64,000 nucleotides of DNA from Alphaproteobacteria bacterium (lineage in GTDB: Bacteria > Pseudomonadota > Alphaproteobacteria > Micavibrionales > Micavibrionaceae), in the NCBI GenBank assembly GCA_030427385.1, contig JAUHWR010000001.1, positions 1,364,001 to 1,428,000 on the forward strand, in the 5' to 3' direction. Position 1 is the stretch's first letter. Each line of letters opens with the position of its first letter. A model generated the notes under the pieces. It did not search any database. It saw nothing but the letters and a program-made list of their open reading frames with translations, and was not told the origin of the DNA. The translations under genes and the position numbers were made by a program. Shown piece after piece: positions 15,139 to 44,754 of this stretch.

Positions 15139-16599
15139 TTATTTCCCGATATCAACCCAACCATTGCCATCGCAAAATTCATAGCGGTCAGCGTTATAAT
15201 TTAACGCCCCCTCAGGAGAACATGCCCCACTTCCACTTGCGGGATCACCCATATTAAATAATGTTGTACCATTACAATAAACCATCGCATCAGTTGAAAA
15301 GTCGTAGTAATATTCGCCAGGATTACTGCAAGCGGTTCCAGTATCGCTTTGCAAGCGGTAAATTGATATGGAATCATGAGCATAAGCTGATACATAAATT
15401 AGGCCGTCTTGTATAACTACACCATTTAGTTCATCTAAAAATGTTGAATTGCTTACGGTATAAACCCGTGTGGGTAGGGCTGGATCACTTATATCTATAA
15501 TAGACAGACTATCACTGGTATTGGCAGTAACATAAGCATAGTTCCCTTCCAAAGCAATTTCCCATGGAACATTCATATTGGCAGCATCAGAAATGGCGCC
15601 AACAATAGTTGGCGTAGCTGGGTTGCTGATATCCACAACGGCAACGCCATCTGCCCCTTGTGCCACAACATAAGCATAATTACCGCGTACCTCGACGTCA
15701 AGCGCACCATTCAGGTCTGTACCATCATCTACTACACCCACGACAGATGGGGATGTCGGATCACTTATATCAATCACGCTTAAAGTATCTGAATTAAATG
15801 CAACCACATAGGCGTAGTTTCCTTGGATATCAATGCCTTCAGCTAGTCTCATACCGTTTAAGGCGTTGGAGTCAGTAAGAGTGGTTTCCAGTGTAGGAGA
15901 CGCTTTATCACTAATGTCTACAACAGCAATTCCATGATTGTTGCGTGAAGTTATGAAGGCATAGTTTCCTGAAATTGCAATATCCCGCGCATCATCTAAA
16001 TTCGTTGAATCTACAAGAACGCCACCAGCGCCGCCACTAGGGGCGGACATATTTGTCGGATCACTTATATCAACGATGACCAAGCTATCATTAGTCGATG
16101 AGACCAGATATGCATAATTTCCTTCTAAAATAACCTTGAACGGCCCCGTTAAATTTGACGAATCTTGATATTGGTCAACAAAAGTGGGGCTGGATGGGTT
16201 GGATACATCGGTGCTAATTAGGCTTTTTACTAAACCACCAGCAAGTGAGAATACATAATCACCAGATACGGCCAAAGCACGCGGGTTTTTATAATATGAT
16301 CCTGTGCTCAGTGTTGCAAGTTTTGTAAGGGTGTGATCACTGGCATCAATCATGTTTATCCATTGTGTATCATCACAATATTGTAAAATATTAGAGCCGG
16401 TCCGGTATTCTATGTCGCCTTCTTGACCGGGATTACCATCTTCATCATTAAAACATGCGGCGTAAACGGGGGTAAAAGACAAGATAAAAAGCGCGCAAAA
16501 CGCCCCCAAAAAGAATTGTTTTTTTTCTTTAAATTTACGTGTTTTTTTTACGCTACAACTCAATACTTTTTCTCTGGTCATGTGATATAACTCGTCCAT
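15139..16599 (-). CDS. LVIVD-repeat (beta-propeller-like) secreted protein
   Basis: Repeated xLxGNYAYVVxxxxDSLxVVDISDPxxPxxVG units; N- and C-terminal Cys/Trp modules (DGNPGQEGDIEYRTGSNILQYCDDTQWINM; CSPEGALNYNADRYEFCDGNGWVDIGK). Confidence 0.85.
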   Translation of the reverse strand: MDELYHMTREKVLSCSVKKTRKFKEKKQFFLGAFCALFILSFTPVYAACFNDEDGNPGQEGDIEYRTGSNILQYCDDTQWINMIDASDHTLTKLATLSTGSYYKNPRALAVSGDYVFSLAGGLVKSLISTDVSNPSSPTFVDQYQDSSNLTGPFKVILEGNYAYLVSSTNDSLVIVDISDPTNMSAPSGGAGGVLVDSTNLDDARDIAISGNYAFITSRNNHGIAVVDISDKASPTLETTLTDSNALNGMRLAEGIDIQGNYAYVVAFNSDTLSVIDISDPTSPSVVGVVDDGTDLNGALDVEVRGNYAYVVAQGADGVAVVDISNPATPTIVGAISDAANMNVPWEIALEGNYAYVTANTSDSLSIIDISDPALPTRVYTVSNSTFLDELNGVVIQDGLIYVSAYAHDSISIYRLQSDTGTACSNPGEYYYDFSTDAMVYCNGTTLFNMGDPASGSGACSPEGALNYNADRYEFCDGNGWVDIGK

Positions 16600-16601
16600 T
16601 T

Positions 16602-18239
16602 TTATTTCCCAATTCCCACCCAATCAGAACCATCACAATAAGTCATTATGTCTGTATTACTATCATATACCATTTCCCCCGCTGTGCCGGCTGGGCTCGC
16701 GCATCCGCCGCCTGCTCCCGTACCTTCCCCCATACTGACCCATGAGTTACCGTTGCAATAAGTCATAACATCGGTATTACTGTCATAAACAATGTCTCCA
16801 GCATCACCAAGCGGGCTACTACAGCCACGATAATTAAATAAATTTGTAATTTCTTCGGGCGTTAAGGCGCGGTTGTAAATACGTACATCATCAATGACGC
16901 CATCTGTAAAATGTGAAACGTTTAAACCGCCTATTGTGAATGTCCTTCCTGAGAAATCATGTGTTGTTTGAACTTTTGAAGAATCAAGAACACCGTTGAT
17001 ATATAGACTTGCTGTTGTTCCATCATGAGTGGCAGCCAAGTGAGTCCACACGCCTGTAGCCCCTATAGTGGTTCCAATACTATCCGAACTTCCTCCGCCC
17101 AGTAAAGCCCAATGAAAATTCCAAGCGCCCGTTGTTCTATTACGCAACGTGAAAGTTGATGTCGTTACATCCGTAAAACGTTGTTCAACATTATTTCTAT
17201 CGAGCTTGACCCAAAGCGACATACTATAAGCTGTACTTAATGTAGGAAGTGCTCCAACTGAAATGTAATCATCCCCATCAAAATCAAGTGCAGAACCAAC
17301 GACTCCGGTTGTGGTGTCTGTGCCAGATAAACCTCCATTCATTGTGCCGTTACTTCCCTTCAAGGCACTATCCGCTGCAACTGTTCCAGAAACTTCATCC
17401 ATCTTCCAATGCCCGACTAAACCATTACGAATATCGCGTGTCCCTATTGCATATAGCGCGGAAATTTCGAGATCTGATAACACCCGATGATAAATGCGTA
17501 AATCATCGAGATTTCCTACAAAATGATTATTAACAACATCCCCGCCTATCAATAACCCTTGATCGTTTTCTATTAAATCTGAATATGTGTCAGAACTATC
17601 AAAAACGCCGTCAACATATAGGCGCGCTGTGGAACCATCCATTGTGACGAGAGCATGATGCCATTGATCATCATTATAGGAGTCAGCCGTAATTATAATA
17701 GCGCCATCAGTGCCAGCATGATTGAATCTAAGTTTTTCTCCTGCGGAGTGAAGGGAAAAGTGCCAACCGAAGCCACCACCGCCCCCGGCATAATGATCGA
17801 AAAACCGTGGAAAGCTATTGGGCTGCACAGGATCGGCTTTAAACCAGACGGAAATTGTTGCTTGTCTATTCGCCAAATCCCAATCATCGCTATCGACTGC
17901 GTCAAGGTATTCACCTGAGAAATATAACGAATCCCCGATCACGCCAGTTTGTTCGTAAAGGGGGGCGGACCCCGGTATTGCGGTATGACCGTTACCGGAA
18001 CTATCTATTACATTGCCGCTGGTATCATCCATTTTCCAATGTCCGATTAAACCTGTATTTAATGATATACCGTTCATCGCGATCCAGTTTGAACCATCGC
18101 AATAGACCATCGCCGCGGAATTTGTATCAAACGTCATATCCCCTGCCGCCCCTACTGGATTGGTACAGGCATAGACTGAAAAAGGGAGAAAACATCCCAG
18201 TATAATAACGCAAATATAATAACGCATAATAACTTTCAC
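16602..18239 (-). CDS. Secreted protein with two LamG/concanavalin-like domains and three Cys/Trp modules
   Basis: Two NGLVGHWKMDE/TGLIGHWKMDD...GxxxDDLRIYHRxLSxxEIxxLY LamG-like units; signal peptide; C..P.G.AGDxxYDSNTDxMTYCxGxxWVxMG repeats. Confidence 0.87.
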   Translation of the reverse strand: MKVIMRYYICVIILGCFLPFSVYACTNPVGAAGDMTFDTNSAAMVYCDGSNWIAMNGISLNTGLIGHWKMDDTSGNVIDSSGNGHTAIPGSAPLYEQTGVIGDSLYFSGEYLDAVDSDDWDLANRQATISVWFKADPVQPNSFPRFFDHYAGGGGGFGWHFSLHSAGEKLRFNHAGTDGAIIITADSYNDDQWHHALVTMDGSTARLYVDGVFDSSDTYSDLIENDQGLLIGGDVVNNHFVGNLDDLRIYHRVLSDLEISALYAIGTRDIRNGLVGHWKMDEVSGTVAADSALKGSNGTMNGGLSGTDTTTGVVGSALDFDGDDYISVGALPTLSTAYSMSLWVKLDRNNVEQRFTDVTTSTFTLRNRTTGAWNFHWALLGGGSSDSIGTTIGATGVWTHLAATHDGTTASLYINGVLDSSKVQTTHDFSGRTFTIGGLNVSHFTDGVIDDVRIYNRALTPEEITNLFNYRGCSSPLGDAGDIVYDSNTDVMTYCNGNSWVSMGEGTGAGGGCASPAGTAGEMVYDSNTDIMTYCDGSDWVGIGK

Positions 18240-18255: not shown

Positions 18256-21200
18256 CTATTTCAGATTTTTTGATGTGCGTCTAAGAACAATTACGGCTGT
18301 AAACGTTCCGCATATCAGCATCAAAATAAGCATACCAATATTAGCGAATGACGCGTTTTGAATATTGTAACTGGTATGTAATTTCAACCCGGCGACATCC
18401 TGCTTCATAGTATTAATAGCCGCAAGAACTTCACTATTCTGATCCTGTAAAGCCGCAAGCTCTTCTTTCAGATTATCGTTTTCTGATTTAAGCGCTTTGG
18501 AAACCTCGATCATTGGAGCAATTAAGCCGATATAATTCACAGATTTTGTGCCCATTTCATCATCGGCAGTATGAACCAACTCTGGGAACAAAGTTTCCAG
18601 CTCCTGTGCCATTACACCAAACTCTGTGCGGCCTTTTTCATCGTCTTTCATTTTGAATGAATATGTGTCGATTTGTGCCAAACGGTTAATCATGTCTTGT
18701 GTGTTAAGCGAGACAATATCCGTTTTTAAACGACGATCCGATGTATCGGTCATCGTGCCGGAATATTGGATATCACCATTCACATCAAGCGTTGCGCCTG
18801 GCGTATCTGTACCCAAACCAATCTCACCGGATGCATCCATATAAAAACTTTCATCCGGGGCATTGGGTTCAATTTGGAACGGTATTGTATTATTGGTTGA
18901 ATCCTTAAGCCGGAAATTTGCTGAGCCGACTTTACCAAACGCCCAATTATTGCTATTACCGCTAAATATTATGTGTGAATAATTAGAAGTTGGCGCGGCC
19001 AGATATAAGGTGGCTCCGCCGGCGGCAGACCGTATGGTCATATTTGCATCATCGCCCGCATCATCCGGCGAGTCAAAAATAGTAAAATCAAACGTGAGTG
19101 AATCAGCTGACGTCGTGTTTACACCCATGCGACCGTCTGGTTGAATGATCATTCGGGATGTTGTCGTTCCCGCGCTGTCATCATAGTAATTCAGGCGGAA
19201 GTCTTCATCAGTCGCTTGTGTTTCATAATAATCAGACTGATCCGCGAAATCATCATTACTTAATCGCATAGCCCCTGCTGAGCCACTTAACGTAACGTTT
19301 GAATTGTTGGCAGCACTACGCACTGAAACAAGACCTGATCCTGTGCTATGTTGGCGAAGTCCGATGACTTCGGTTCCCGCAGAGTTATTGAATTGCATAA
19401 ACTCACTGCCAGCGGTTGTATTTTGCATGGTGGCAAGGAAAACATCATTGGCAGAAGCTCCGGAAATATCCAGCAATGTCGAAGCCGTCGTTTTACCAAT
19501 CGCAACATTTCCAGCCGCATCAATGACAAACGGAGAGCCATCACCTGCTTCATCTTCCACCAGAAGTGTGTTGCCTGTGCCTGTATTCACAATAGAGAGA
19601 ACTTCTGTGCCATCGGCTGTAATTGAGGTGCTGGCATCCAACTCCATGGTGTCATCGAATTTATCGAAATCCAGCGAGTCATCTGCAACTGTTGCTGCGC
19701 CCGCACTAGCCAAAGCTTCCCAGCTATCGGCACTGGCGGCGTTGTCTTTACAGAATTCAATGGTGTCCGTTGTCGCGTTATAACGGATTGCACCCGGGAA
19801 ATCGGTTTCGCCTGTGGAACAATCTTCACCACCATCACGCAAAATCATTGATCCATTGATATGCAATATTGCTTTCGGTTCATTGACATCAATCCCCACA
19901 TTTCCAGACCCAGAATCCATACTTAATGTCCGTATCCATGTAGTTCCATCCCAATAATTGAAGAAGAGGTCGTTTTGTAGAGATGGAGTTGCCGCATATG
20001 TATCACCACGCGCACCAATCATCCAACCTGTTGATCCGGCGGCATCCAACGCTGTGATGCCGTCACCAGAGGTTAGTAAATGTACGCCGGCTGAGCTGGT
20101 TTCATCACTTTCCACAGTCAGATATGCGTTACCATTGTCTCTATAAATCGAAAGCTTACCTGTCGGATCGGGCGTTCCAATGCCGACCGCACCCGTATCA
20201 TCGATCACAAACGGCGTGTCATCCGTGGCTTTATCGCCCACAAAGAAGCTATTGCCTGTGCCTGTATTCACAATTGAGAGAACCTCTGTGCCATCTGCGG
20301 TGATTGACGTGCTGGCATCCAAGGCCATCGCGTCTTTAAATTCGGTGAAATCTAAAGAATCAGCCGTAATGCCATTACTGCTTAAAACCGTTGTCACGGC
20401 TTGCCCATCAATTTTTATGCGGTCGGCGGCATTAATTATTCCATTCACCGTTAATGTGTCGGAGGTATCATTAAAGGTGAAATCAGAACTGGCAGCCAAA
20501 CCGCCGCTACCGTCGTTAAACTGAATTTCATTGGCGCTACCGGCTGCTGATGCCCCGCCTAATGCGGCCCAAGTCGGTGATCCGGCTTCGCAGTCATTGG
20601 TAAATTCCATCTGGTTGGCGGTATCATTGTAACGGATACAGCCTTGGTTGGTATCAGAGCCGCCATCGACGTCATCAATCAAAAGCTTCCCGCCAACAAG
20701 GGCAAGGACGTTTTCTTGAGCCATGTTTGAGCTGGTTTGATCGCCAAAGAACAACGCTAAGGATTCATTGCCTGTTACACGAGGATAATTGGCTGTTGAA
20801 CCACCGGATTCACCTAAACCAAACGCGACAGAATAATTTCCTTTTCCGCTCGTAGCTCCACTCGTCTGCGCTGTATTATCACCGGCAATTACTTGATTGC
20901 CAAATGCAAGACTGGCAAAACCACTTGCATTTGCATATCGACCAGCCGCAATACTATTTGTTCCTATTGCGTTAGCTTCCCTCCCGAAAGCAGTACTATA
21001 TTGCGCGCTTGCTGTTGTGAATGATCCGAACGCCATACTATATTGACCACTTGCTGTCGAATAGTTCCCTAAAGCAGCACTATTTTCCCCTTCAGCCTGC
21101 GTATTTTCACCATAACCAAAGGAATTTTGTCCAATATTGCCATTATTCCATGCATCATTGAACGATGAAACTTCACCACCGCGAAATGCGCCCTTATTAG

Positions 21201-24200
21201 GAAAATAAAAGCTGTATGTACCATTATCATCCAAAACCCCTGGAAGGGTGGTCTCCGCCGTGTCAATCACGTGGAACCCATCGCGGGAGATATATGTCGT
21301 GTTATCCGTCCAAAGACCCGAACCGCCACTTGCCAAAGCTTCCCAGCTATCATCGCTGGTGTCGTTGTCCTTACAATATTCAATGGCATCGGTAGTGGCG
21401 TTATAACGAATTGCACCTTGGAAATCCGTTTCCCCACCGGAACATGTCTCCGCACCATCGCCAAGGATGACAGAGCCGCCCACGTGAAGCATGGTTTTAG
21501 GATCAGTATTACCAATACCCACAAAGCCATTCTCGTGGATGCGCATGCGCTCGGCCATTGTCGTACTTGATCGAGTTTCAAAACGAAGGCTGGCATGTGC
21601 TGTTGATCCTACCGCACGATACGCATCAATTTGGGCTAAACCCGCGCCAACACTATTAAACGCTATACCGATTCCGGTTTCTGCGGTTCCATCTGATTTT
21701 AACCGTAAGGCCGTTCCGTCCGCATCTGGCATTTCAATATCCAGCATAAATAATGGATCATCTCTTCCAATCCCGACATATCCGGTTAAAGAATCCAATG
21801 CCATTCTTACGTCCCAGGCTGTTCCATCCCAGTAATTAAAAAGAAGATCATTTTGTTGTGGAGCGTTGGTGTAAGCATTTCCTCTACCCACTACATGCCA
21901 TCCCAAAGTGGTTGCATCACCTAATTCGGAGGCTCCATCTCCATTTGTTAAAAGGTTGAGCGCTGTGAAACCGGTTGCTGCTGATTCAAGCTGTATATGA
22001 GCCGGTGCCCCCGGTTTGTATATGTGTAAACTTTTCTGCGGTGCTGCCGTACCAATCCCGACATTCCCATCGGCATCAATCACAAATGGCGTAGCATCGA
22101 CGCTGGCTTCATCCTCCACAACGAAACTATTTCCCGTGCCTGTATTTACAATGGACAGAACCTCTGTGCCATCGGCGGTGATGGATGTGCTGGCATCCAG
22201 CGCCATTGCGTCTTTGAATTTGTCGAAATCGAGGGAATCATCAGTTACTGCACCGCTCGCTCCAACCAAAGCTTCCCAGCTATCGGCGGCAACATCATTG
22301 TCCTTACAATATTCAATCACATCTGATGTGGCATTATAACGGATCGCCCCTTGGAAATCGGTTTCCCCGCCAGAACACGTTTCCGCGCCATCGCCAAGGA
22401 TGACAGAGCCAGCAACGTGGAGAAGCGATTTTGGATCATTCGTCCCAACCCCGACATTTCCTCTTCCTTGAACAACGAATGATGGTAGCCAAGTTGCACC
22501 ACTATCTTTACTACTGCTTATTCCAAAAACTGATGTAGAAACAAGGCTATCTCCAAATTGCATCGCATGACGAAGTATGCCTTCCTCAGTTGCGAGTGTG
22601 AAGCGCCGTTCTGTGTTTGAATCAGCGGTGTCCATACCTAAATCGTAAGGATCATCAGACGTAGCGACGGTGGTGTTTAATATCATCCGCATCGTCGCCG
22701 CGCTTCCTGCATCAAGTAAAAATCCAGGTGTGGGTGTCCCAATACCGACATTCCCATCAGCATCAATCACAAATGGCGTAGCATCGACGCTGGCTTCATC
22801 CTCCACAACGAAACTATTTCCCGTGCCTGTATTTACAATGGACAGAACCTCTGTGCCATCGGCGGTGATTGATGTGCTGGCATCCAGCGCCATCGCGTCT
22901 TTGAATTCGGTGAAATCGAGAGAATCGGCGGTGACTGCACCGCTCGCACCAACTAACGCTTCCCAGCTATCAGCGGCGACATCATTGTCCTTACAATATT
23001 CAATCACATCTGATGTGGCATTATAACGGATCGCCCCTTGGAAATCAGTCTCCCCGCCAGAACACGTCTCCGCGCCATCGCCAAGGATGACAGAGCCACC
23101 GACGTGGAGTAGGGACTTAGGGTCCGTGGTGCCGATGCCAATATTTCCGTTGCGATCAATTCTCATACGTTCTGTTGCAGGAGAAGGTCCTGTCGCAAAG
23201 CGTATACCCCCAACAGTTGCGTGCTGTGAAATAAGAACAAGCCCATTTTCAGCTTCAGTCATTAATGCTGCTTCTTTACTGCCGGCGTCACTGCTCATAG
23301 CAAAGTAAGATGTACCTTCATCAGTTGTCAAAAATAAGCCGGATGAAGCAGAAGAGCCAGCATCCATATTTATAATTCCAATTCCTGTCCCCGAATCTTG
23401 ATCCTTCTGAACGTGGAGTTTATGTAGAGGATTTGCTCCAACCCCGACATTACCATCCGCGGCAATCACAAACGGCGACCCGTCTCCAGCTTCATCCTCC
23501 ACAACAAAACTATTCCCCGTACCTGTATTTACAATGGACAGAACCTCTGTGCCATCGGCGGTGATTGATGTGCTGGCATCCAGCGCCATCGCGTCTTTGA
23601 ATTTGTCGAAATCGAGGGAATCGTCGGCGATAGAGCCCGCGCCGCCGCCCATGGCGGTCCATGCGGGTGATACGGCTTCGCAGTCATTGGCAAATTCCAT
23701 CTGGTTGGCGGTGTCGTTATAGCGGATACAGCCTTGGTTGGTGTCTGTGCCACCGTCAACATCATCAATCAGCAACTTCCCGCCGACAAGGGCGAGGACG
23801 TTTTCTTGTGTTACGGTTGAATCAGTTTGATCGCCGAAGAAAATGCCGAAGGATTCGTTTGCGATGACGTTTGGCCAATCTGCTGCAAACCCACTAGCTT
23901 CACCCAGACCAAAGCCAACCGAGAAATGACCGAGGTTAGCGGTTGCTTTATTCACAGAAGTACCTGGTGTTGCGCTATCTCCCACTTTAACAGTTGAACC
24001 AAAAGCGGAACTAGCATAGCCGGACGCACGTGAAGACCTATTTGTTGCAAAGCTAGCATGTCCATTTGCGGAGACATGATCGCCGAATGCATGGGCATAA
24101 TCCCCTCTTGAATAAGAATTAAAACCCGATGCAAAACTTCCCGTGGATATGGCATTTGCTCCAAACCCAAAAGTGGTAGACATGTTTCCACTTGATGTAT

Positions 24201-27200
24201 TATTCACACCCCAAGAAAAACTTTGATCACCGATATTAATATCTTCCCAACCATCAAGGTTGGAACTAATTCTTCCGCCGCGCATTACACCCTTATCAGG
24301 ATCATAGAAAGCATAAGTACCATTTCCGTCCAATCCTGCGGTTGTGCTGCCTGCGGCTAAGCCCGTATCGAGGATGTGGAATCCTTCGCGGGAAATATGT
24401 GTCGTGTTATCTGTCCAGAGGGCTGCAGCGCCGCCTAATGCCGACCATGTAGGTGTGCCGGATTCACAGTTATTGGAATATTCCATCTGGTTGGCGGTGT
24501 CGTTATAGCGGATACAGCCTTGGTTGGTGTCTGTGCCACCGTCAACATCATCAATCAGCAACTTCCCGCCGACAAGGGCAAGGACTTGTTCTTGTGTGAC
24601 TTCGGAGCTTGCCTGATCGCCGAAGAAAATGCCGAAAGATTTGTTGCCCCTGACTTGAGGTCTGTTACCGCCACCGCTGCTTGGTTTTCCAAGGCCAAAG
24701 GCGACAGAGTAATTACCTTTTCCTAAATTTGCATCACCGTCTGAGAAGCTTTGTTCAATGCCATCACCCGCAATTACCTCGTTACCAAAGGCCATGCTGT
24801 TGTAACCTGATGCAGTATTTTGTTGTCCTCCGCCGATAAAAGCGGCAGGGCCAGTTGCATAGTTTAAACGTCCTAAAGCTACCGACCACGGTTGCGTAGA
24901 GCTTATTTGTGTACCAAGGGCTATAGCATATTGATCGCTAGCTGTTGTGTTAGAACCTATAGCTATACTGCCAGTACCGCTGGCTTCTGAGTTAAATCCA
25001 TGAGCAAAGCTATAAACTGCAATATTTCCATTGTTCCAAGCATCATTTGAATAAAAAATTCCACCACTGCGGAAGGCGCCTTTATCAGGGAAAAAGAAGG
25101 CGCGGTTGCCATCATCATCCAAAGCTGCCGGAAGGGTGGTTTCCGCGGCGTCAATCACGTGGAATCCTTCGCGGGAAATATGAGTCGTGTTATCCGTCCA
25201 CAAACTTGCGGCGCTGGCGGCGACGTCTAGGGTGGTGCCAGTTAGGCTAAGGCTGGAGCCAATTGTTATTTCCTCGGCAATACCCGCGCCCGCTGTCGCA
25301 CGTCCCAGAAGGCGATTTGTGGCGCTGACATCCTGCATTTTGGCATAGGTGACCGCGTCATCGGCAAGCATGCCGGTTTCAACAGACGTATTTTGAATGG
25401 TCATTGAGCCGTTTGCCGCGATGCCGATATCATTGCTCGGCGCGACAGAGTGCCAATCTGTACCATCATTCACCAAGATATTTCCAACGCCATCTGCATC
25501 CGTCACATCAGACAGATCCCCAAGCGCGCTAACGCTGCTTCCTGTACTTGCCAATGCTTCCCAACTATCGGCGGCGACGTCATTATCTTTACAATACTCA
25601 ATCACATCCGTTGTCGCATTATAGCGGATCGCGCCTTGGAAATTCGTTTCACCTGTGTCGCAGGCTTCCCCGCCATCCCCTAATTTAATTGAGCCATTTA
25701 CATCAAGTTTTGTTCGCGGTAAATCGCGTCCCATACCAATATTGCCATTGGAGCGAATGGTCATTTCCGGCGTATCGCCATAGGCCGCTGCTTCGCCTGC
25801 GCCCGCCACATGGAATTGTAATTCCGTGGGCATAATATCATCACCGGGCGTACCATCCACTTTGCCTCGAATAAAGGCGCCAAGCGTATAATCGCCAGTG
25901 CCGTCTTCGCCGTTAAAATGCAAACCGCCAAGGGTATCTGTATCTTGTACAATGACCGATGCACCGCGTGAGCGTACAAGCTCAATCTGCGCCGCATTAC
26001 GTGCGCCGGTGCTGTCATCGCTGCCGATACGAACGGTTTGATCCTGGCCAAATATATCAAGAAGCACCCCGGGGGTTGCAATACCAATTCCCACATTTCC
26101 GTCCGCATCAATGACAAATGGCGATGTATCGCCCGGCGCATTTTCATCATTGACTAAAAAACTGTTTCCCGTGCCTTCATTTGTAATAGACAATGTATAA
26201 GCTTGGCCGCTGGGGGCGTTAATATCTGTGGATGCATCCAGATCCATTTGATCTTCAAAATCATCAAAATCAAGGCTGTCCGCCGCAATCCCTGCGCCAT
26301 TGGCGCTTAAAACCGTACCAGTTAAAACCAAACCAGTGCCCAAAGTAATTTCTTCGACTATTCCCGAACCAGCAGTGCCGCGCCCCAAAAGAATATCTGT
26401 GGAAACATCCTGCATTTTGGCATAGGTCACCGCATCATCGGCTAGCTTACCCGTGCCAACGGCAAGGTTGGCAATCATCGATGTTTCAACCGATAAATTC
26501 TGAATTGTCATTGAACCGTTTGCCGCGATGCCGATATCATTACTTGGTGGAACAGAATGCCAATCCGTACCATCATTTACCAAAATGTTTCCAACCGCAT
26601 CCGCATCCGTTACATCGTTTAAATCCCCTAAATTGTCAGTGCCAACACCGTCACCGCCACCGCCGCTACCGCAGGCCTCAACGAACATCACTGTTCCGTT
26701 TGTTTTCAAACAATTTGCGCCCGATCCTGCACCGGCCACGTCAAGATCATCATATTGAACCGCGTTATTTTGAATAACCGTTGCCCCCGCGCCATCAATA
26801 GCGATATCCCCGCTCATGGCGACAGAGCTGAAATTTGTGCCATCGGCGACCAGAACATTACCGCTTGTATTTGTGTTCATGACAATGTCGCCGCCGCCCA
26901 CGGTCAAATCACCATCCACAGTCAAATCTTTATCAAAATCAACATTTTCGTTCGCTGTCAAAAGGCCAGTAATGGTAACGGTATCCGTTGCCGCATCACC
27001 AAGAATTACATTGCCCTGAACGTCCAATGCTTTATCGAAATCAACGTCTTCATTTGCTGTCAAAAGACCGGTAATGGTAACCGTATCCGTTGCCGCATCG
27101 CCAAGAATTACATTACCCTGAACGTCCAATGCCTTATCAAAATCAACGTCTTCGTTTGCCGTTAAAAGCCCCGTAATGGTAACCGTATCCGTTGCCGCAT

Positions 27201-28455
27201 CACCAAGAATTACATTACCCTGAACGTCCAATGCCTTATCGAAATCAACATCTTCGTTTGCCGTTAAAAGACCGGTAATAGTAACCGTATCCGTTGCCGC
27301 ATCACCCAATGTAACATTACCATCAACACCAAGCGTACCCGTTGTCGTAATATCTAACGATCCTGCGTCAAGGGTTGTTGCGCTTAGAGACATTTCCTGC
27401 GTGCCATTGACATCAAACGTAATAATCGGCACACCGTCATTCACTTCAACTTCTGTATCGCCATCACTAATCTTCTTAACGCCGCTGGCTCCCGCCGCGA
27501 CGCTTGCCCATACCCATACACTGCCGCCGCTATCATAACAAATCTCAACAGTGGGGGGAGATGTTCCCGTATTACGACGCAAAATACCTTCATTTGCTGC
27601 GTTACATGATGATGCCCCATCGGTGACAGATTCATCAGGAAGGCGCAGCGACCCAGCTAAGTTTTGCAAATCAAATATGCTGGCGCTGCTTGCACCCGAA
27701 AATGTCGCACCGCCTGTAACATTCAAATCTTTAGTAATCTCTGCAACATCCGGATTTCCTGATTGAATTTTCCAAAGCCCGCCTGCAAAGGCTTGTGCTT
27801 CGCCATATGTGAAATCCATAATAATATCATCCGAACCACCTGCTTTTACGGCAAGTTTTCCACCAGCCGCAGCGGCAAAAGTTCGACAATTTGTTGAAAA
27901 CGTTCTATCAGCCCCAGCCGAGACAATCGTAATAATCGGATAAGTATCTAAATCAGTACCACTTCCGGCAATCAAATCAGGCGCACCCGCGGCACAGCCT
28001 CCACCCGTATCAACAGATCCCGCATTCCATGCACAATATCCATATTCCGTACCCCAAGGGTCGGTTTTACTGGCCCCAATTGTATTGGGCAATGCCCCGC
28101 CATTTATAAGTGTTCCACCAGGCGCAGGTGCGCCAAAAGCCGCGGGAAAAATCGGTTCAATATATCCATCACTATCACAATCACCGGAGGATGCCTGCTC
28201 GGCGGATTGAACAATTGCCATACGCCCCGCCAATTGCATCTGGCTCTCTGCTTGGGTTTTCTTATTAACTTCAACCATGGTAGTTAATGGCCCGCGCATA
28301 ATGCTCATCGATGCGGCGCCAATAACGCCGACAACGGCCACCGCCCCGAACAATGCGAAGAATACATTCCCGCGTTCTCTATTGATTATATTCGCCTTCG
28401 GCTCCACTTTTCCCATTTCAAAACCCCAATGTTTATAGTCACCTGTAGAATTCAA
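18256..28455 (-). CDS. Giant repetitive surface/fibre protein with pilin/TadG-like N-terminal TM, YadA-head-like modules, S74 intramolecular chaperone and C-terminal TM (start may be 28416)
   Basis: N-term RERGNVFFALFGAVAVVGVIGAASM; SGxxSxAxGxxxxASGxxSxAFG head motifs; C-term SDRRLKTDIVSLNTQDMINRLAQIDTYSFKMKDDEKGRTEFGVMAQELETLFPELV; final hydrophobic helix NIGMLILMLICGTFTAVIVLRR. Confidence 0.88.
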   Translation of the reverse strand: MNSTGDYKHWGFEMGKVEPKANIINRERGNVFFALFGAVAVVGVIGAASMSIMRGPLTTMVEVNKKTQAESQMQLAGRMAIVQSAEQASSGDCDSDGYIEPIFPAAFGAPAPGGTLINGGALPNTIGASKTDPWGTEYGYCAWNAGSVDTGGGCAAGAPDLIAGSGTDLDTYPIITIVSAGADRTFSTNCRTFAAAAGGKLAVKAGGSDDIIMDFTYGEAQAFAGGLWKIQSGNPDVAEITKDLNVTGGATFSGASSASIFDLQNLAGSLRLPDESVTDGASSCNAANEGILRRNTGTSPPTVEICYDSGGSVWVWASVAAGASGVKKISDGDTEVEVNDGVPIITFDVNGTQEMSLSATTLDAGSLDITTTGTLGVDGNVTLGDAATDTVTITGLLTANEDVDFDKALDVQGNVILGDAATDTVTITGLLTANEDVDFDKALDVQGNVILGDAATDTVTITGLLTANEDVDFDKALDVQGNVILGDAATDTVTITGLLTANENVDFDKDLTVDGDLTVGGGDIVMNTNTSGNVLVADGTNFSSVAMSGDIAIDGAGATVIQNNAVQYDDLDVAGAGSGANCLKTNGTVMFVEACGSGGGGDGVGTDNLGDLNDVTDADAVGNILVNDGTDWHSVPPSNDIGIAANGSMTIQNLSVETSMIANLAVGTGKLADDAVTYAKMQDVSTDILLGRGTAGSGIVEEITLGTGLVLTGTVLSANGAGIAADSLDFDDFEDQMDLDASTDINAPSGQAYTLSITNEGTGNSFLVNDENAPGDTSPFVIDADGNVGIGIATPGVLLDIFGQDQTVRIGSDDSTGARNAAQIELVRSRGASVIVQDTDTLGGLHFNGEDGTGDYTLGAFIRGKVDGTPGDDIMPTELQFHVAGAGEAAAYGDTPEMTIRSNGNIGMGRDLPRTKLDVNGSIKLGDGGEACDTGETNFQGAIRYNATTDVIEYCKDNDVAADSWEALASTGSSVSALGDLSDVTDADGVGNILVNDGTDWHSVAPSNDIGIAANGSMTIQNTSVETGMLADDAVTYAKMQDVSATNRLLGRATAGAGIAEEITIGSSLSLTGTTLDVAASAASLWTDNTTHISREGFHVIDAAETTLPAALDDDGNRAFFFPDKGAFRSGGIFYSNDAWNNGNIAVYSFAHGFNSEASGTGSIAIGSNTTASDQYAIALGTQISSTQPWSVALGRLNYATGPAAFIGGGQQNTASGYNSMAFGNEVIAGDGIEQSFSDGDANLGKGNYSVAFGLGKPSSGGGNRPQVRGNKSFGIFFGDQASSEVTQEQVLALVGGKLLIDDVDGGTDTNQGCIRYNDTANQMEYSNNCESGTPTWSALGGAAALWTDNTTHISREGFHILDTGLAAGSTTAGLDGNGTYAFYDPDKGVMRGGRISSNLDGWEDINIGDQSFSWGVNNTSSGNMSTTFGFGANAISTGSFASGFNSYSRGDYAHAFGDHVSANGHASFATNRSSRASGYASSAFGSTVKVGDSATPGTSVNKATANLGHFSVGFGLGEASGFAADWPNVIANESFGIFFGDQTDSTVTQENVLALVGGKLLIDDVDGGTDTNQGCIRYNDTANQMEFANDCEAVSPAWTAMGGGAGSIADDSLDFDKFKDAMALDASTSITADGTEVLSIVNTGTGNSFVVEDEAGDGSPFVIAADGNVGVGANPLHKLHVQKDQDSGTGIGIINMDAGSSASSGLFLTTDEGTSYFAMSSDAGSKEAALMTEAENGLVLISQHATVGGIRFATGPSPATERMRIDRNGNIGIGTTDPKSLLHVGGSVILGDGAETCSGGETDFQGAIRYNATSDVIEYCKDNDVAADSWEALVGASGAVTADSLDFTEFKDAMALDASTSITADGTEVLSIVNTGTGNSFVVEDEASVDATPFVIDADGNVGIGTPTPGFLLDAGSAATMRMILNTTVATSDDPYDLGMDTADSNTERRFTLATEEGILRHAMQFGDSLVSTSVFGISSSKDSGATWLPSFVVQGRGNVGVGTNDPKSLLHVAGSVILGDGAETCSGGETDFQGAIRYNATSDVIEYCKDNDVAADSWEALVGASGAVTDDSLDFDKFKDAMALDASTSITADGTEVLSIVNTGTGNSFVVEDEASVDATPFVIDADGNVGIGTAAPQKSLHIYKPGAPAHIQLESAATGFTALNLLTNGDGASELGDATTLGWHVVGRGNAYTNAPQQNDLLFNYWDGTAWDVRMALDSLTGYVGIGRDDPLFMLDIEMPDADGTALRLKSDGTAETGIGIAFNSVGAGLAQIDAYRAVGSTAHASLRFETRSSTTMAERMRIHENGFVGIGNTDPKTMLHVGGSVILGDGAETCSGGETDFQGAIRYNATTDAIEYCKDNDTSDDSWEALASGGSGLWTDNTTYISRDGFHVIDTAETTLPGVLDDNGTYSFYFPNKGAFRGGEVSSFNDAWNNGNIGQNSFGYGENTQAEGENSAALGNYSTASGQYSMAFGSFTTASAQYSTAFGREANAIGTNSIAAGRYANASGFASLAFGNQVIAGDNTAQTSGATSGKGNYSVAFGLGESGGSTANYPRVTGNESLALFFGDQTSSNMAQENVLALVGGKLLIDDVDGGSDTNQGCIRYNDTANQMEFTNDCEAGSPTWAALGGASAAGSANEIQFNDGSGGLAASSDFTFNDTSDTLTVNGIINAADRIKIDGQAVTTVLSSNGITADSLDFTEFKDAMALDASTSITADGTEVLSIVNTGTGNSFFVGDKATDDTPFVIDDTGAVGIGTPDPTGKLSIYRDNGNAYLTVESDETSSAGVHLLTSGDGITALDAAGSTGWMIGARGDTYAATPSLQNDLFFNYWDGTTWIRTLSMDSGSGNVGIDVNEPKAILHINGSMILRDGGEDCSTGETDFPGAIRYNATTDTIEFCKDNAASADSWEALASAGAATVADDSLDFDKFDDTMELDASTSITADGTEVLSIVNTGTGNTLLVEDEAGDGSPFVIDAAGNVAIGKTTASTLLDISGASANDVFLATMQNTTAGSEFMQFNNSAGTEVIGLRQHSTGSGLVSVRSAANNSNVTLSGSAGAMRLSNDDFADQSDYYETQATDEDFRLNYYDDSAGTTTSRMIIQPDGRMGVNTTSADSLTFDFTIFDSPDDAGDDANMTIRSAAGGATLYLAAPTSNYSHIIFSGNSNNWAFGKVGSANFRLKDSTNNTIPFQIEPNAPDESFYMDASGEIGLGTDTPGATLDVNGDIQYSGTMTDTSDRRLKTDIVSLNTQDMINRLAQIDTYSFKMKDDEKGRTEFGVMAQELETLFPELVHTADDEMGTKSVNYIGLIAPMIEVSKALKSENDNLKEELAALQDQNSEVLAAINTMKQDVAGLKLHTSYNIQNASFANIGMLILMLICGTFTAVIVLRRTSKNLK
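20560..21320 (-). repeat. YadA-head cassette, copy 1 inside the giant gene
   Basis: WTDNTTYISRDGFHVIDTAETTLPG...ASGQYSMAFGS...VLALVGGKLLIDDVDGGSDTNQGCIRYNDTANQMEFTNDCEAGSPTWAALGG. Confidence 0.75.
23640..24425 (-). repeat. YadA-head cassette, copy 2 inside the giant gene
   Basis: WTDNTTHISREGFHILDTGLAAG...VLALVGGKLLIDDVDGGTDTNQGCIRYNDTANQMEFANDCEAVSPAWTAMGG. Confidence 0.75.
24426..25207 (-). repeat. YadA-head cassette, copy 3 inside the giant gene
   Basis: WTDNTTHISREGFHVIDAAETTLPAALDDDG...VLALVGGKLLIDDVDGGTDTNQGCIRYNDTANQMEYSNNCESGTPTWSALGG. Confidence 0.75.
26920..27330 (-). repeat. 102-bp coding tandem repeat (34 aa: ALDVQGNVILGDAATDTVTITGLLTANEDVDFDK), about 4 copies
   Basis: aagaattacatt landmark recurs at 27001, 27103 and 27205 (spacing 102 bp), with a diverged unit at about 27307. 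Confidence 0.92.
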
Positions 28456-30211: not shown

Positions 30212-30910
30212 ATGAAATTTGATACCGTCATCGTAGTATTGGTATCCTTTACGATAGCCTTTTTATTTTTCGTTGCTAAGGATTATCAAAAAGAAGGAAG
30301 CTTTGCAGAAAGCATCCAAATTGCATTTGGGCTTAAAGCGGCCGATACGGCGCCTAGTCCGGAAACAACGCTTATTGCCCCTTTTGCTGATCCAAATGTT
30401 AAGCCTCTACCTAAAACTGAACATGGATACGCTCATTTACCGGTAAATAAGATCCAGATGACTTTGCCGCATCGCTCCATCCGCCACGTCAGCGACTGGC
30501 TGACGCAACATGCCGGAAATGCACTTATTTTAGATAAAGATAAAATATCCAAATTAATGACAGAAATTAAACCCTCTTTCACAGAAGAGGCATTTGAAAA
30601 ATATAAAGCATTTGGCAAAACCACAAATATTTTCTCGGCCGTTTTCCACGAAGAAAACACAACACTTGAGACGTATTTGAAAGAAGATCCTCTATCCTTC
30701 TCAAGAGGCCCTGTCGATGGGGTTTATCAATGGAAATTTGAGATGCACATGGTTTTAAACCTTGTCAAAGGCACCTTAACTCAATATAAAAATACAAAAT
30801 CAAGCCAGCAGCATAAAGATGTTTTCTTTTGTATTACGGTTGCCCGCGATAATAGCGCAAATGAGGATGGCCTGTTAATAAGTGACTGGAAAACAGGACG
30901 CTGCAAATAA
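30212..30910 (+). CDS. Hypothetical membrane-anchored protein
   Basis: N-terminal TM (VIVVLVSFTIAFLFFVAKDY), no family recognised. Confidence 0.6.
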   Translation: MKFDTVIVVLVSFTIAFLFFVAKDYQKEGSFAESIQIAFGLKAADTAPSPETTLIAPFADPNVKPLPKTEHGYAHLPVNKIQMTLPHRSIRHVSDWLTQHAGNALILDKDKISKLMTEIKPSFTEEAFEKYKAFGKTTNIFSAVFHEENTTLETYLKEDPLSFSRGPVDGVYQWKFEMHMVLNLVKGTLTQYKNTKSSQQHKDVFFCITVARDNSANEDGLLISDWKTGRCK

Positions 30911-33209: not shown

Positions 33210-34178
33210 TTACATATTTGAAATCTGTATGCCGACCGGCCCCAAAATGATCACGAATAATGATGGTAGAAAGAATATAATCATTGGCACCGTCAATTTA
33301 GGTGGCAATGACATCGCCTTTTCCTCCGCACGTTGCATCCGAATATCACGCATTTCATCTGCCAAAACACGTAGCGCCTGAGATACCGATGTTCCGTATT
33401 GTTCTGCCTGTATAAGCGAGGTCGTAAAAGATTTTGCCGCCGCGCTCCCTACTCTTCTGGCGAAATCACCTAAGGCTGCACGGCGGTCATTCAGCATGCT
33501 CATTTCCGCGCATAATATGCCAAGCTCTTCGGCGAGTGTTGGTGATTGTTCCACGATTTCATTAGAGATTCGATCAATTGTCTGCTCTAAACCGATCCCG
33601 CCTTGAACGCAGATCAACATCATATCAAGCGCATCAGGGAATGATAATTCCATATCTTGCTGACGTTTTTGAATCATGTTTTTGATTAAAATATTCGGTA
33701 AGAAAAAGCCAAATGCAAAACCACCAAAATAAACGCCAAGCTGCAATAATTGCGAGAATTCACGCTCTTCCGGCGCGGCATTAAAAATAATGAAGGCAAA
33801 TAATAAAAAGAAAATCGGTAGACCAATTCGTGCAATCATGAAATTTATAGGCGCTTTTGGATTGCGATATCCGGCCTGTAGCATTTTATCACGTAACTTC
33901 TCACCCTGCGTCCCTAACATTTCCTGCATTTTATAAAGCATCGCCATATTTTCACGGGCGCTTGCCTCATGATCTTTAGTTATAATATTACGATCACGTC
34001 CGGCTTTGGCATCTTCATAAAGGGCACGACGGCGTTTTTGAACAATGTCCGTATATCGCTTCTTTTTCTCTTCTTTATTAAGAAACATCGAGGCAAATGC
34101 CATAAAAGACACCGCCGCAATTATCGCACTTATAAAAATAACGAGCGTCTCATCACTTATTCCAAAAAGCTCTAACAT
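33210..34178 (-). CDS. tadC: Type II/Tad secretion F family protein
   Basis: T2SSF pattern (DALDMMLICVQGGIGLEQTI, LADEMRDIRMQRAEEKAMSLPPKLTVPMIIFFLPSLFVIILGP). Confidence 0.9.
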   Translation of the reverse strand: MLELFGISDETLVIFISAIIAAVSFMAFASMFLNKEEKKKRYTDIVQKRRRALYEDAKAGRDRNIITKDHEASARENMAMLYKMQEMLGTQGEKLRDKMLQAGYRNPKAPINFMIARIGLPIFFLLFAFIIFNAAPEEREFSQLLQLGVYFGGFAFGFFLPNILIKNMIQKRQQDMELSFPDALDMMLICVQGGIGLEQTIDRISNEIVEQSPTLAEELGILCAEMSMLNDRRAALGDFARRVGSAAAKSFTTSLIQAEQYGTSVSQALRVLADEMRDIRMQRAEEKAMSLPPKLTVPMIIFFLPSLFVIILGPVGIQISNM

Positions 34179-34187
34179 TAAAAATTC

Positions 34188-35165
34188 CTATACTTTAAAA
34201 TTAATCATTATTTTCATGGATAAAATGCCAAGGCTCATCCAAATAATGGCCCCCGCCAACATTACCTTGCCGGTCGGATTTTCCACTAAGACCATTACAT
34301 GTTCAGGCTTTAACAAATACATGCCCCCGCCTACGACGATTGGCAAAGCGCCGATAATACCGGCGGAAGCCTTGGCTTCCGATGATAATGATTTTACTTT
34401 CCGCGCCAGCTTATATCGCGCGCGGATAGTATCCGCCAGATTTGAAAGAATTTCAGAGAGGCTTGAGCCGGTTTGCGCTTGAATGGCAAGGCCGGTTGCA
34501 AACATCTTTACCTCAGGTAGCGGCATACGATCGGCGGCGTCCATGGCGGCCTCATGTAGCGGCACGCCGATGCGCTGCGCTTCATAAATCTGTGTCATCT
34601 CTTCGCCAATTGGTCCGCTATATTCACGCGCCACCATGGAAATTGCTTCCGCGACAGGCATACCGCTCTTAAGCAGACGCACCATCGCCTCCAAAGCATC
34701 GGCAAATTCTTCGATAAATTTCTTACGCCGGCGCGCGCCCATGCGCCCGATCACAAAACGCGGCAATCCGAAAAATCCGATCATACAAATCAAAAACATC
34801 AAAACCATAGATACCTTCATAAAGAAGGCAATCATTGTGCAAATAATTCCTGAAATGATCGAATACATAAAAAATTTAGGAATGCTTATGTCATGGCCGG
34901 TTTGTTGCAGTTTATTTCTTAACGTATTTTTTTTCTTTTTTCTGCTACCACTTTCATCATCTTGATGTTTTAGTTTTTTAGCAATCTCGGCACGGCGGCG
35001 ATCTGCATTATCTACGTTACTGGTTTTTTGAGATTTTTTTTGCCCTGTAATAATTTCACGCGCACGCTCACTTTCAGGGTTATTTTTTTTCAAAAATAAA
35101 TAAGCTGTGACGACAAAAGCAATCACAATAAATACAGCAATGAATATAATAACAATCGGTGACAT
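34188..35165 (-). CDS. tadB: Type II/Tad secretion F family protein
   Basis: FADALEAMVRLLKSGMPVAEAISMVAREYSGPIGEEM; RARYKLARKVKSLSSEAKASAGIIGALP. Confidence 0.9.
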   Translation of the reverse strand: MSPIVIIFIAVFIVIAFVVTAYLFLKKNNPESERAREIITGQKKSQKTSNVDNADRRRAEIAKKLKHQDDESGSRKKKKNTLRNKLQQTGHDISIPKFFMYSIISGIICTMIAFFMKVSMVLMFLICMIGFFGLPRFVIGRMGARRRKKFIEEFADALEAMVRLLKSGMPVAEAISMVAREYSGPIGEEMTQIYEAQRIGVPLHEAAMDAADRMPLPEVKMFATGLAIQAQTGSSLSEILSNLADTIRARYKLARKVKSLSSEAKASAGIIGALPIVVGGGMYLLKPEHVMVLVENPTGKVMLAGAIIWMSLGILSMKIMINFKV

Positions 35166-35325
35166 GTGCCTGATTTTCTAGAAATTTTTAACTTCTATAA
35201 TTTTAAGGTAAGAACATGAAAATGAGCTTAAGTTATTATGGCAATTTATGTATTTATGCTGCCCTGCCCCTTGACGATCCATGGCTTTAGACCCAAACTC
35301 TTTAGATAAACAAGGAGATTTCCCC

Positions 35326-36540
35326 ATGACAAAAATCAAAGTCGCAACGCCACTAGTTGAAATTGACGGGGACGAAATGACCCGCATTATTTGGGAGATG
35401 ATCCGCGAGCGCTTGATTAAACCTTATCTGGATATTGATCTGGAATATTACGATCTCTCCATTCAAAAACGCGATGAAACCAATGACCAGATCACGATTG
35501 ACGCCGCCAATGCGATTAAAAAGCATGGCGTGGGCGTAAAATGCGCGACGATTACCCCCGATGAAGATCGCGTGAAGGAATTTGATCTCAAGAAAATGTG
35601 GAAATCTCCGAATGGGACAATACGTAACATTTTAAACGGCACAGTGTTCCGCGAGCCGATCACCATGGAAAATGTGCCGCGCTATGTGCCCGGATGGAAA
35701 AAACCGATGGTTGTGGGGCGTCACGCCTTTGGTGATCAATACAAAGCCACCGATTTCAAGGTTACAGAACCTGGTAAGCTAACGATGACATTCGTACCCG
35801 AAGGCGGCGGCGAAACACAAGAATTCGAGATTTTTGACTTCCCCTCCTCCGGCGTGGCAATGGGGATGTATAATCTGGACGAATCGATTGAAGGGTTTGC
35901 GCGCGCTTGCTTTAATTATGGTCTGCAACGCAATTACCCTGTTTATCTCTCTACCAAAAATACCATCCTGAAAGCCTATGACGGGCAATTTAAAGATATT
36001 TTCCAACGCATTTATGAGGCGGAATTTAAATCAGAATTTGAAAAACAAAAGCTATGGTACGAACATCGCCTGATTGATGACATGGTCGCCTTTGCCGTGA
36101 AATCCGAAGGCGGGTTTGTCTGGGCCTGTAAAAATTACGACGGCGATGTCCAATCCGATATCGTCGCGCAGGGCTACGGATCACTTGGTTTAATGACTTC
36201 CGTCCTGCTGACCCCCGATGGCAAATGCGTCGAAGCCGAAGCCGCGCACGGCACCGTCACACGTCATTACCGCCAACATCAAAAAGGCGAAAAAACCTCT
36301 ACCAACCCCATCGCCTCCATCTTCGCATGGACAAGAGGCCTGAAATACCGCGCCAAATTCGATGGCAATGACGCGCTAGATGCTTTTGCCGAAACCCTAG
36401 AACAAGTCTGCATCAACACCGTCGAAAGCGGCAAAATGACGAAGGATTTAGCGCTATTGATCGGGAACGATCAGGCTTACCTTACAACTGAGGAGTTTAT
36501 GGATGCGGTTGTGAAGGGATTAGAGGGAAAGATGGGGTGA
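35326..36540 (+). CDS. icd: NADP-dependent isocitrate dehydrogenase
   Basis: [31 protein letters not shown]... [19 protein letters not shown]...; RBS AAGGAG before ATG 35326. Confidence 0.95.
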
Positions 36541-36543
36541 AAA

Positions 36544-36726
36544 ATGGAAGATTTAGTAAACTTTGTTCTTCTTAACAAAGAATGGATTTTTAGTGGTATT
36601 GGCGTATTTATTATCTCATTAATTTTTTTACAAAAAAAATCTAGCCGCATTAAGATTAATCAAAAACAAATATCAGGTGATAATTCATCATCTACTCAAA
36701 TTGGTAATATTAGAGATAATGAGTAA
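36544..36726 (+). CDS. Small single-TM protein with SGDNS motif tail
   Basis: MEDLVNFVLLNKEWIFSGIGVFIISLIFLQKKSSRIKINQKQISGDNSSSTQIGNIRDNE; overlaps the next gene by 8 bp (ATGAGTAA). Confidence 0.75.
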   Translation: MEDLVNFVLLNKEWIFSGIGVFIISLIFLQKKSSRIKINQKQISGDNSSSTQIGNIRDNE

Positions 36727-37735
36727 GCAAATTCAAAAAAGCGGCGACAATAGCACTCAAGTCCAAGCAGAGAACTATTATGCTGGAGCTACTCCTGCAG
36801 AAGTTATTCAAATTTTTAATACCTTATGGGAGAATAATTTTCCAAAGCTACAAAAACAAGCAATGGATATTGCCGACCAAAGAGCTTCAGAACTTAAAAA
36901 TGAAATAATCCAAGAATTATCAACAAAAGCACCAGAAATAATTGAAAATTTATCTACTCCCAGAAAACAAAACGACTTATTTGAGGCCCAAAAAGGCTAT
37001 GCTCTCTCAGGTAGCGAGGCTCTCAGGAAAACCCTTACCTCTCTAGTTTGTGCATCACTTGAGGAAAAAGATGAGAGCAGCTCAAACTCTATAATTTTGT
37101 CTGAGGCTATAAAAGTAGCTAAGAATTTATCTTCTAACCACCTGAAGATATTAGGTTGTATATATCTTTTAAAACAATTGAGATTTGCACCTAGAAATGT
37201 GCAGCATTTATTAGATCTTTTTCAACAACATCTCCTCGCGATAGATATCAATGAGATAAATTTTAACGTAAGCGAGTTTCTTAATTTAGAATTTCATAGA
37301 TGCGTCATTATAGCACCATTACAAAAAAAAGTTTTTGTGCCATTAATGAGAGAAACGTATCCGGGTATTTTTTCAAAAGGATTTACTATTGAGCATATTG
37401 AAAACATTCTAGGATCAATGTCCTTTTTACCAAAAAATTTAATTGTAGAAAACTTACATGATCCTAAGCTTCTGCAAATAGGCATCGCTAATGAAGAAGA
37501 CCTTAAAACTTTTAAATTAGAACAGCGACTGCATGACAAGGTTGTTAAAACATTAAGAGACAATCGAATGGGAGATGACGAAATCACTCACTTAATAAAA
37601 AATAAATCAGAGAACTTTGATTTATTTATAAAAAACTGGGATGCTAGTGCTATCTCTGCTTGTCGTTTAAGTCCAGTCGGAAAAACATTAGGACATACAT
37701 TTCTGCAAACAAGAATAGACTTGCCAAACTTATGA
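36719..37735 (+). CDS. Protein with N-terminal SGDNSTQVQ motif (resembles LPO_1073/Vpar_1526-type accessory proteins)
   Basis: MSKQIQKSGDNSTQVQAENYYAGATPAEVIQIFNTLWENNFPKLQKQAMDIADQRA; start set at ATG 36719 rather than 36677. Confidence 0.7.
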   Translation: MSKQIQKSGDNSTQVQAENYYAGATPAEVIQIFNTLWENNFPKLQKQAMDIADQRASELKNEIIQELSTKAPEIIENLSTPRKQNDLFEAQKGYALSGSEALRKTLTSLVCASLEEKDESSSNSIILSEAIKVAKNLSSNHLKILGCIYLLKQLRFAPRNVQHLLDLFQQHLLAIDINEINFNVSEFLNLEFHRCVIIAPLQKKVFVPLMRETYPGIFSKGFTIEHIENILGSMSFLPKNLIVENLHDPKLLQIGIANEEDLKTFKLEQRLHDKVVKTLRDNRMGDDEITHLIKNKSENFDLFIKNWDASAISACRLSPVGKTLGHTFLQTRIDLPNL

Positions 37736-37737
37736 AT

Positions 37738-39339: not shown

Positions 39340-39347
39340 ATAGCCTC

Positions 39348-40598: not shown

Positions 40599-40793
40599 TT
40601 TTTAATTTATCCCCGAATGAGACTAGAATTTATTTTGTGCGCCTTTATGGCTCTTATTAATTTATCATGACTGAAAGTGTTTAAATAAGTGTTATTTTCT
40701 AGAGGAATCCACGCCTTTTTCTTAATATAAAGATATGCGAGACGCTAAATGCCATGGAATTGGCGATGATAACTTAACTATAAATATTACCCC

Positions 40794-41450: not shown

Positions 41451-41466
41451 CTTAAAATTCCTTCTA

Positions 41467-42963: not shown

Positions 42964-42983
42964 TTTATTGCCTTTTATAACTT

Positions 42984-43874: not shown

Positions 43875-43996
43875 ACTGGCTCCTCCGTATAGAGAGGTTC
43901 AAAAGGGTTTGTGGCGATTCATTCACGTGAATAATTTAAAAGAATGCTTTAAAAAGAAAGTCCTAGATATAGGAATACAGTTATAAAATTAACAAA

Positions 43997-44554: not shown

Positions 44555-44577
44555 TTCCCCGCTCTCGGTAAGTGTTA

Positions 44578-44754
44578 TTAAGGATTTACACTTGCTAATT
44601 CCGTGCCAATACTATCAAAGAGAGTAGCAACCTCAGGCCCCGCAATTAATAAACCCGCAACAATCAAGATACTCATAAGTCCCGCGATCAAGCCATATTC
44701 AATAGCCGTCGCACCATCATCAGATCGTATATACTTTTTTATATTTATTTTCAT
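44578..44754 (-). CDS. Flp family pilin (second copy)
   Basis: MKINIKKYIRSDDGATAIEYGLIAGLMSILIVAG; RBS AAAGGA 8 nt before ATG 44754. Confidence 0.93.
   Translation of the reverse strand: MKINIKKYIRSDDGATAIEYGLIAGLMSILIVAGLLIAGPEVATLFDSIGTELASVNP

Follow-up and report, generated by a model that had tools for sequence, protein, structure and literature searches.

A giant S74-ended fibre gene with a membrane helix at each end in a relative of Micavibrio, and its likeness to the mosaic adhesive trimers of Bdellovibrio

Background

Among described systems, the closest to the gene presented here is the mosaic adhesive trimer (MAT) superfamily of Bdellovibrio bacteriovorus. MATs have a constant N-terminus and S74 or non-S74 ends, and both their S74 self-cleavage and their surface display were shown (Caulton et al. 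2024, PMC10769870). They typically have ~1,000 aa and start with a signal peptide and a beta-rich domain of ~130 aa. A second system is MYRF in animals, together with MrfA in Dictyostelium. MYRF is a transcription factor released from the ER, and its S74 domain can free a membrane-tethered trimer (PMC3742443, PMC3828593). Self-cleavage was shown to depend on the serine and the lysine, or on the serine, in EndoNF, MYRF, MrfA, and Bd3182, a MAT of Bdellovibrio (PMC10769870, PMC3742443, PMC3828593). Peptidase_S74 also occurs in the fibres and spikes of phage tails (endosialidase, T5, long tail fibre distal subunit), and YadA-head repeats build trimeric autotransporter adhesins such as YadA and BpaC. 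For Micavibrio, we found no paper on an S74 or MAT system in the literature library that was searched.

Here, we describe a giant fibre gene from a relative of the predatory Micavibrio, with a genome of 2.19 Mb whose close named relatives are Micavibrio. The gene lies in a 64-kb window, by which we mean the whole stretch of DNA that was analysed. The interest of the case is in the membrane-tethered S74 domain together with the predator context. We read the product as a MAT-like surface fibre of a Micavibrio-type bacterium that would be freed by S74 self-cleavage, and we give this reading a probability of about 0.62.

Results

The open reading frame of the fibre gene is on the minus strand, at 18256-28455, and has 3399 aa if counted from a TTG. 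We preferred the ATG at 28416 (codon 14) because GGGG sits 7 nt upstream of it; with the stop at 18256, the protein has 3386 aa. The features of the gene are:

18256..28416, minus strand: giant fibre gene, counted from the ATG (3386 aa and stop codon)
27739..28416, minus strand: N-terminal domain (aa 14-239) with basic leader, Gly-Asn, membrane helix, long helix, DxDxDG loop, DPWGxxYGYC, IISAGPDRxF, and an invariant cysteine pair
28297..28368, minus strand: N-terminal membrane helix (aa 30-53), from hydropathy; helix 6-62 of the structure model
26930..27306, minus strand: tandem repeat with a unit of 102 bp (34 aa), present in 3.7 copies
19858..26094, minus strand: body region with ten VGIGxxxPxxxLxV caps, seven G[AC]IRYN..D.[IM]E[YF] modules, and five DGTEVLSIVNTGTGN repeats, from a motif scan; PHROGs tail fibre
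24586..25038, minus strand: first YadA-head-like stretch (Pfam), limits approximate, containing aa 1158-1182
23836..24198, minus strand: second YadA-head-like stretch (Pfam; read off the translation), limits approximate
20746..21168, minus strand: third YadA-head-like stretch (Pfam; phmmer against the PDB), limits approximate; aa 2441-2548 match the BpaC head
18571..18741, minus strand: Peptidase_S74 / intramolecular chaperone domain (aa 3239-3295), with the predicted cut just before Ser3239 and the general base Lys3244 (SDRRLK)
18397..18510, minus strand: coiled coil (aa 3316-3353), from a ZapB-like match and alignment
18274..18357, minus strand: C-terminal membrane helix (aa ~3367-3394), then basic tail RRTSKNLK, from hydropathy and homologue alignment

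From N- to C-terminus, a basic leader of 16 residues is followed by a membrane helix within a conserved domain of ~217 aa, the tandem repeat, a body of about 3,000 residues of tail-fibre and YadA-head repeats, Peptidase_S74, the coiled coil, and a second membrane helix with its basic tail. Hydropathy of the whole chain gave exactly two membrane helices, at aa ~28-54 and ~3367-3394, and no membrane segment beyond these two terminal ones. Every part named by the original prediction (N-terminal hydrophobic segment, YadA-head stretches, S74, coiled coil, final membrane helix) is present. Its overall picture, a mosaic fibre with a functional-looking S74 and a membrane anchor at each end, agrees with Pfam, hydropathy, and the catalytic residues.

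For the N-terminal domain (N-domain), the invariant or nearly invariant positions were the Gly-Asn before the helix, a Gly-Pro behind it, DxDxDG, DPWGxxYGYC, IISAGPDRxF, the cysteine pair, and an Asp-Asp. The DxDxDG loop is calcium-site-like. Within the Micavibrio-type order, 146 genomes were searched and 83 have the domain, with one to four copies per genome; identity among the longer matches in these relatives was roughly 32-79%. Scanning 85,488 species gave 120 stretches, and the 80 that were kept came mostly from Micavibrio-type or alphaproteobacterial MAGs. A few kept records were labelled Nitratireductor, Hyphomicrobium, Stappia, Stella, Methylobacterium, Mesorhizobium, or Rhodospirillales, and the domain appears sporadic in Alphaproteobacteria outside the Micavibrio-type order.

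AlphaFold2 modelled the N-domain as one continuous helix of ~57 residues and a small beta head (pLDDT 88), and the head alone reached a pTM of 0.87. Pfam and NCBIfam held no convincing model match, Foldseek against the PDB returned no match and no pilin for either the full or the head-only model, and a profile search of the PDB gave chance hits only. We describe the N-domain as an unnamed family and putative presentation domain of pilin-like layout, not as a pilin, because the Glu at +5 was absent in 58 members and profile comparisons with TadG, GspG, and prepilins were weak. Since it is without detectable sequence or fold kin, its description as an anchor on the cell surface rests on analogy.

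The TadE/G-type N-terminus and the Tad-associated adhesin of the original prediction did not hold. A wider form of the idea would make the N-domain a divergent pilin that a prepilin peptidase processes and that is assembled into a pilus of the Tad or type IV kind, with the fibre at the tip. Its appeal is in the likeness to type IV/Tad pilins and pseudopilins: a basic leader, a Gly at the possible -1 site before the membrane helix (58/58 members), and a long helix ahead of a small beta head that has a candidate disulphide. Moreover, the arrangement of D-G-Y-G..Y, S-x-G-x-N, and D-D parallels the canonical long prepilins of the same genome. That genome also encodes two prepilin peptidases, and one of its loci is type IV pilus-like. 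However, Glu at +5 was found in 0/58 members. The N_methyl profile (PF07963), which hit 20/20 true prepilins of the clade as a control, matched none of the 58 up to E=1, and neither did PF13400 or PF07811 up to the same value; T2SSG/GspG (PF08334) gave one weak match among them (E=0.23). With hhalign, the N-domain reached 0.1% against TadG and 48% probability against GspG over 13 columns only, with DPWGxxYxY in common. TadG, GspG, and canonical prepilin identities were rejected, the profile comparisons being unconvincing. What remains of the pilin idea is the layout alone, with the invariant Gly, almost always followed by Asn (55/58 at +1), before one long helix.

At the level of synteny, the window contains one tad locus:

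33210-45030: tad locus that includes two genes for Flp pilins, at 44578-44775 and 44839-45030, and has no TadG nearby

The claim that tadE/F/G are not recognisable was right for the window and wrong for the genome, which has a TadG-like PF13400 gene at C1:2101484. Among 89 N-domain loci, tad genes within 7 kb were found only in the window and in genome G001, that is, in the source genus alone. In two closed relatives (G023, G052) the tad ATPase is ~1.1 Mb away from the N-domain gene, and the N-domain is carried by 8 of the 15 genomes without a tad ATPase, including G038, G059, G076, and G085. The Tad-adhesin idea is thus unsupported, because linkage is limited to the source genus and the N-domain occurs without tad; we rejected it on synteny and co-occurrence. 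Dependence of the fibre on the type IV pilus-like system of the genome is unsupported too, as several N-domain genomes (the well-assembled G039, G091, and G103, and others) lack its ATPase. In family f3, this ATPase is missing from nearly all genomes searched, yet several members have the N-domain. Incompleteness of MAGs weakens single cases of ATPase absence, but not the pattern. All in all, we consider a pilus-mounted adhesin unlikely.

Two other loci of the genome concern pilus-type genes. At C1:11.6-28.7 kb (L169:5619-10428, L170:1013-10169) there is a type IV pilus/type II-like apparatus with PilB, PilC, PilM/N/O-like proteins, a secretin, PilT, PilU, and two prepilins. GspG was not found, and PF08334 had no match in the genome, in line with the report of M. 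aeruginosavorus without GspCGHK (PMC3189940). At C1:1.0148-1.0200 Mb (L171:5783-11051) there are three unusually long canonical prepilins of 472, 768, and 542 aa, with N_methyl and Glu at +5. Their C-terminal parts have fibre-like 'LDVxGxx' segments, the cluster adjoins a protein resembling an inverse autotransporter with a LamG part, and homologues were found in 42 of 59 relatives searched.

At the C-terminal end, Peptidase_S74 (PF13884) scored 56.5 bits against a Pfam cut-off of 22, which bears out the predicted S74 similarity. The Ser-Lys dyad is intact (SDRRLK, fitting SDxxxK), and the Ser, Asp, Arg, Leu, and Lys of SDxRLK were identical in 18/18 aligned homologues with a membrane tail. 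The C-terminal profile of the family matched phage fibre tips (1.2e-13) and the crystal structure of the MYRF ICA domain (7dc3, E=1e-9). A membrane helix and basic tail followed S74 in 29 of the 30 best order-wide hits, a set that is biased because the query included the helix; among closed N-domain S74 proteins, the less biased figure was 18/24. None of the 84 viral S74 proteins compared had a membrane helix behind S74, and such an anchor is the unusual feature of the fibre protein. Since six N-domain S74 members end without the helix, tethering is not essential to the family.

This same helix and tail could be a sorting signal of the PEP-CTERM, GlyGly-CTERM, or LPXTG type. A transpeptidase or rhomboid-type protease would then cut it and fix the protein on the surface, and cleavage by S74 would be secondary. 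The shape of the tail fits, with a conserved HTGYGIxKAS, a helix, and then RRRK, and 3/18 C-termini weakly matched LPXTG_anchor (best E 0.07). However, no curated sorting-signal model came near its cut-off, and the HTGYGIxKAS stretch is absent from several members. Besides, S74 would remove the tail anyway, and no catalytic residue varies among the 18 tailed members that were aligned. We regard a sorting signal as improbable, even more so than a pilus mount.

The body of the protein combines modules of phage fibres and of adhesins. PHROGs tail-fibre families matched at 2.7e-38 and 4.8e-25, and Pfam gave DUF5907 in two stretches (44.4 bits) and YadA_head in four (43.9 bits). Against the PDB, phmmer matched the YadA-type head of BpaC (9e-10), the MAT Bd2133 (8ond, E=1.4e-6), the MYRF ICA domain (1e-5), and the 'cell wall surface anchor family protein' 8oml (3.8e-4). 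The matches to S74, YadA_head, and tail-fibre families are far above chance, and the YadA-head-like stretches of the original prediction are among them. The ten copies of the cap motif compare with 0.01 expected in shuffled sequence. A cysteine pair flanks most of the seven IRYN modules, and the cysteine pairs of N-domain and body would fit an exported protein. Unlike YadA-type adhesins, the protein has no C-terminal YadA_anchor barrel (Pfam) and ends with S74 and a membrane helix instead. Least probable of all is a protein that both ends anchor in the inner membrane and that remains periplasmic, with a structural or envelope role and no adhesive one. It would suit the one membrane helix per end and the absence of any match to a YadA-type outer-membrane anchor. 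Against it, the body has modules known from tail fibres and YadA heads, N-domain relatives bear modules of kinds typical for binding to surfaces (LamG, RCC1-like, lectin-like, beta-propeller), and the extreme diversity of bodies fits recognition.

Regarding the family plan, 65 closed N-domain ORFs were available: 18 end with S74 and a membrane helix, six with S74 alone, and 41 with other ends. As read from the sequences, the latter include RCC1-like and lectin-like 'YCFEQ' ends; some ORFs are frameshifted assemblies. Many giant versions with S74 and a membrane helix occupy the same chromosomal site, where an ABC1 kinase gene is upstream of them and a divergent DotI/IcmL-like gene is close by. 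ABC1 is directly upstream of 11/24 S74-ended N-domain genes vs. 3/35 of the others. LamG genes often come after the giant fibre genes at this site, and LamG-type genes were found at 19 of 116 homologous loci, some loci being counted twice. In the window, the two genes downstream of the fibre gene are:

16602..18239, minus strand: exported LamG-domain protein with a cysteine-paired 'GDIxYDSNTDxMxYC' module common to the fibre body
15139..16623, minus strand: protein of the LVIVD beta-propeller type whose ends carry this cysteine module

Because LamG-type genes trail the fibre gene in many relatives and the cysteine module is common, we suggest that the LamG protein, the LVIVD-propeller protein, and the fibre may be a co-exported set.

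The fibre gene is flanked by housekeeping genes, and we found no N-domain relative in 2.9 million viral contigs; prophage origin was rejected on these grounds. Both results are in agreement with the predicted bacterial chromosome without phage genes nearby. The protein shares S74, fibre repeats, and PHROGs families with phage tail fibres and spikes, and differs from them in its chromosomal gene, its N-domain, and the helix behind S74.

The window has a DotI/IcmL-like gene (a T4BSS inner-membrane component) at 30212-30910. Its place next to ABC1 and the giant fibre gene is conserved in many relatives, and it was the one Dot/Icm gene recognised in the 64-kb window.

Discussion

From the parts, their conservation, the catalytic residues, and the synteny of the gene, we infer a route in four steps for the MAT-like fibre. 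The N-terminal helix would serve as a signal-anchor that leaves the basic leader in the cytoplasm, and Sec would export the remainder of the chain. The C-terminal helix and basic tail would stop in the inner membrane, and three chains would be tethered at both ends during folding of the body. S74 and the coiled coil would then trimerise the chain, a correct trimer would align Ser3239 and Lys3244, and the chain would cut itself before Ser3239 and leave the S74, coiled coil, and membrane helix behind. For this step, the domain and its catalytic residues were observed in the protein, and the reaction is that of the S74 family. Finally, the freed fibre, held by the constant N-domain, would project from the cell and be displayed as an adhesin for other cells or surfaces, with body and tip differing between strains. 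It counts against this reading that an N-terminal helix in the inner membrane does not by itself place the body beyond the outer membrane.

The fibre resembles Bdellovibrio MATs in its constant N-domain, long trimeric-type fibre, and exchangeable tips. Both systems have S74-ended (SDxxxK) and non-S74-ended members, several copies per genome occur in some relatives, and one body stretch is homologous to Bd2133, as given above. The differences are also clear. The constant domain here differs from the MAT domain in layout, with 217 aa and an uncleaved-looking membrane helix. A coiled coil and membrane helix come behind S74, whereas no C-terminal anchor is reported for MATs, the word 'transmembrane' being absent from the main text of PMC10769870. 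Our protein has about three times the length of a typical MAT, and its host is an alphaproteobacterium. By analogy, the giant fibre looks like a counterpart, in the Micavibrio lineage, of the fibres with which Bdellovibrio recognises prey. This suggests S74-assembled mosaic fibres on two unrelated predator lineages, Bdellovibrio and Micavibrio.

The N-domain fibres are a concrete candidate family across the order, with strongly varying bodies. The N-domain merits a family entry of its own, which would flag such fibres in many uncultured genomes.

With MYRF and MrfA (PMC3742443, PMC3828593), the protein shares the order of body, S74/ICA with its Ser-Lys dyad, coiled coil, and membrane helix. 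They differ in that MYRF is a transcription factor leaving the ER, whereas here we have an exported fibre with a second, N-terminal anchor. A bolder proposal, to which we would give slightly less than even odds, is a bacterial counterpart of MYRF: the S74 chaperone would be tethered to the inner membrane through its own C-terminal helix, the trimer would be checked there, and self-cleavage would be the switch that releases a giant fibre able to bind prey or surfaces. The opposite end of this fibre would be held by the presentation domain, which is previously undescribed and occurs across Micavibrio-type bacteria. The gene also provides a bacterial example of S74 in a membrane-tethered layout, until now a matter of MYRF and MrfA, and it bears on the origin of the eukaryotic switch.

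Apart from the fibre family itself, we observed an S74-like protein adjoining an N-domain S74 gene in a relative (L088:13106-14656, the same as L040:7421-8971). It has a signal-peptide-like start of its own and a C-terminal membrane helix. Since it carries SLKEYK instead of SDxxxK, it is probably not self-cleaving.
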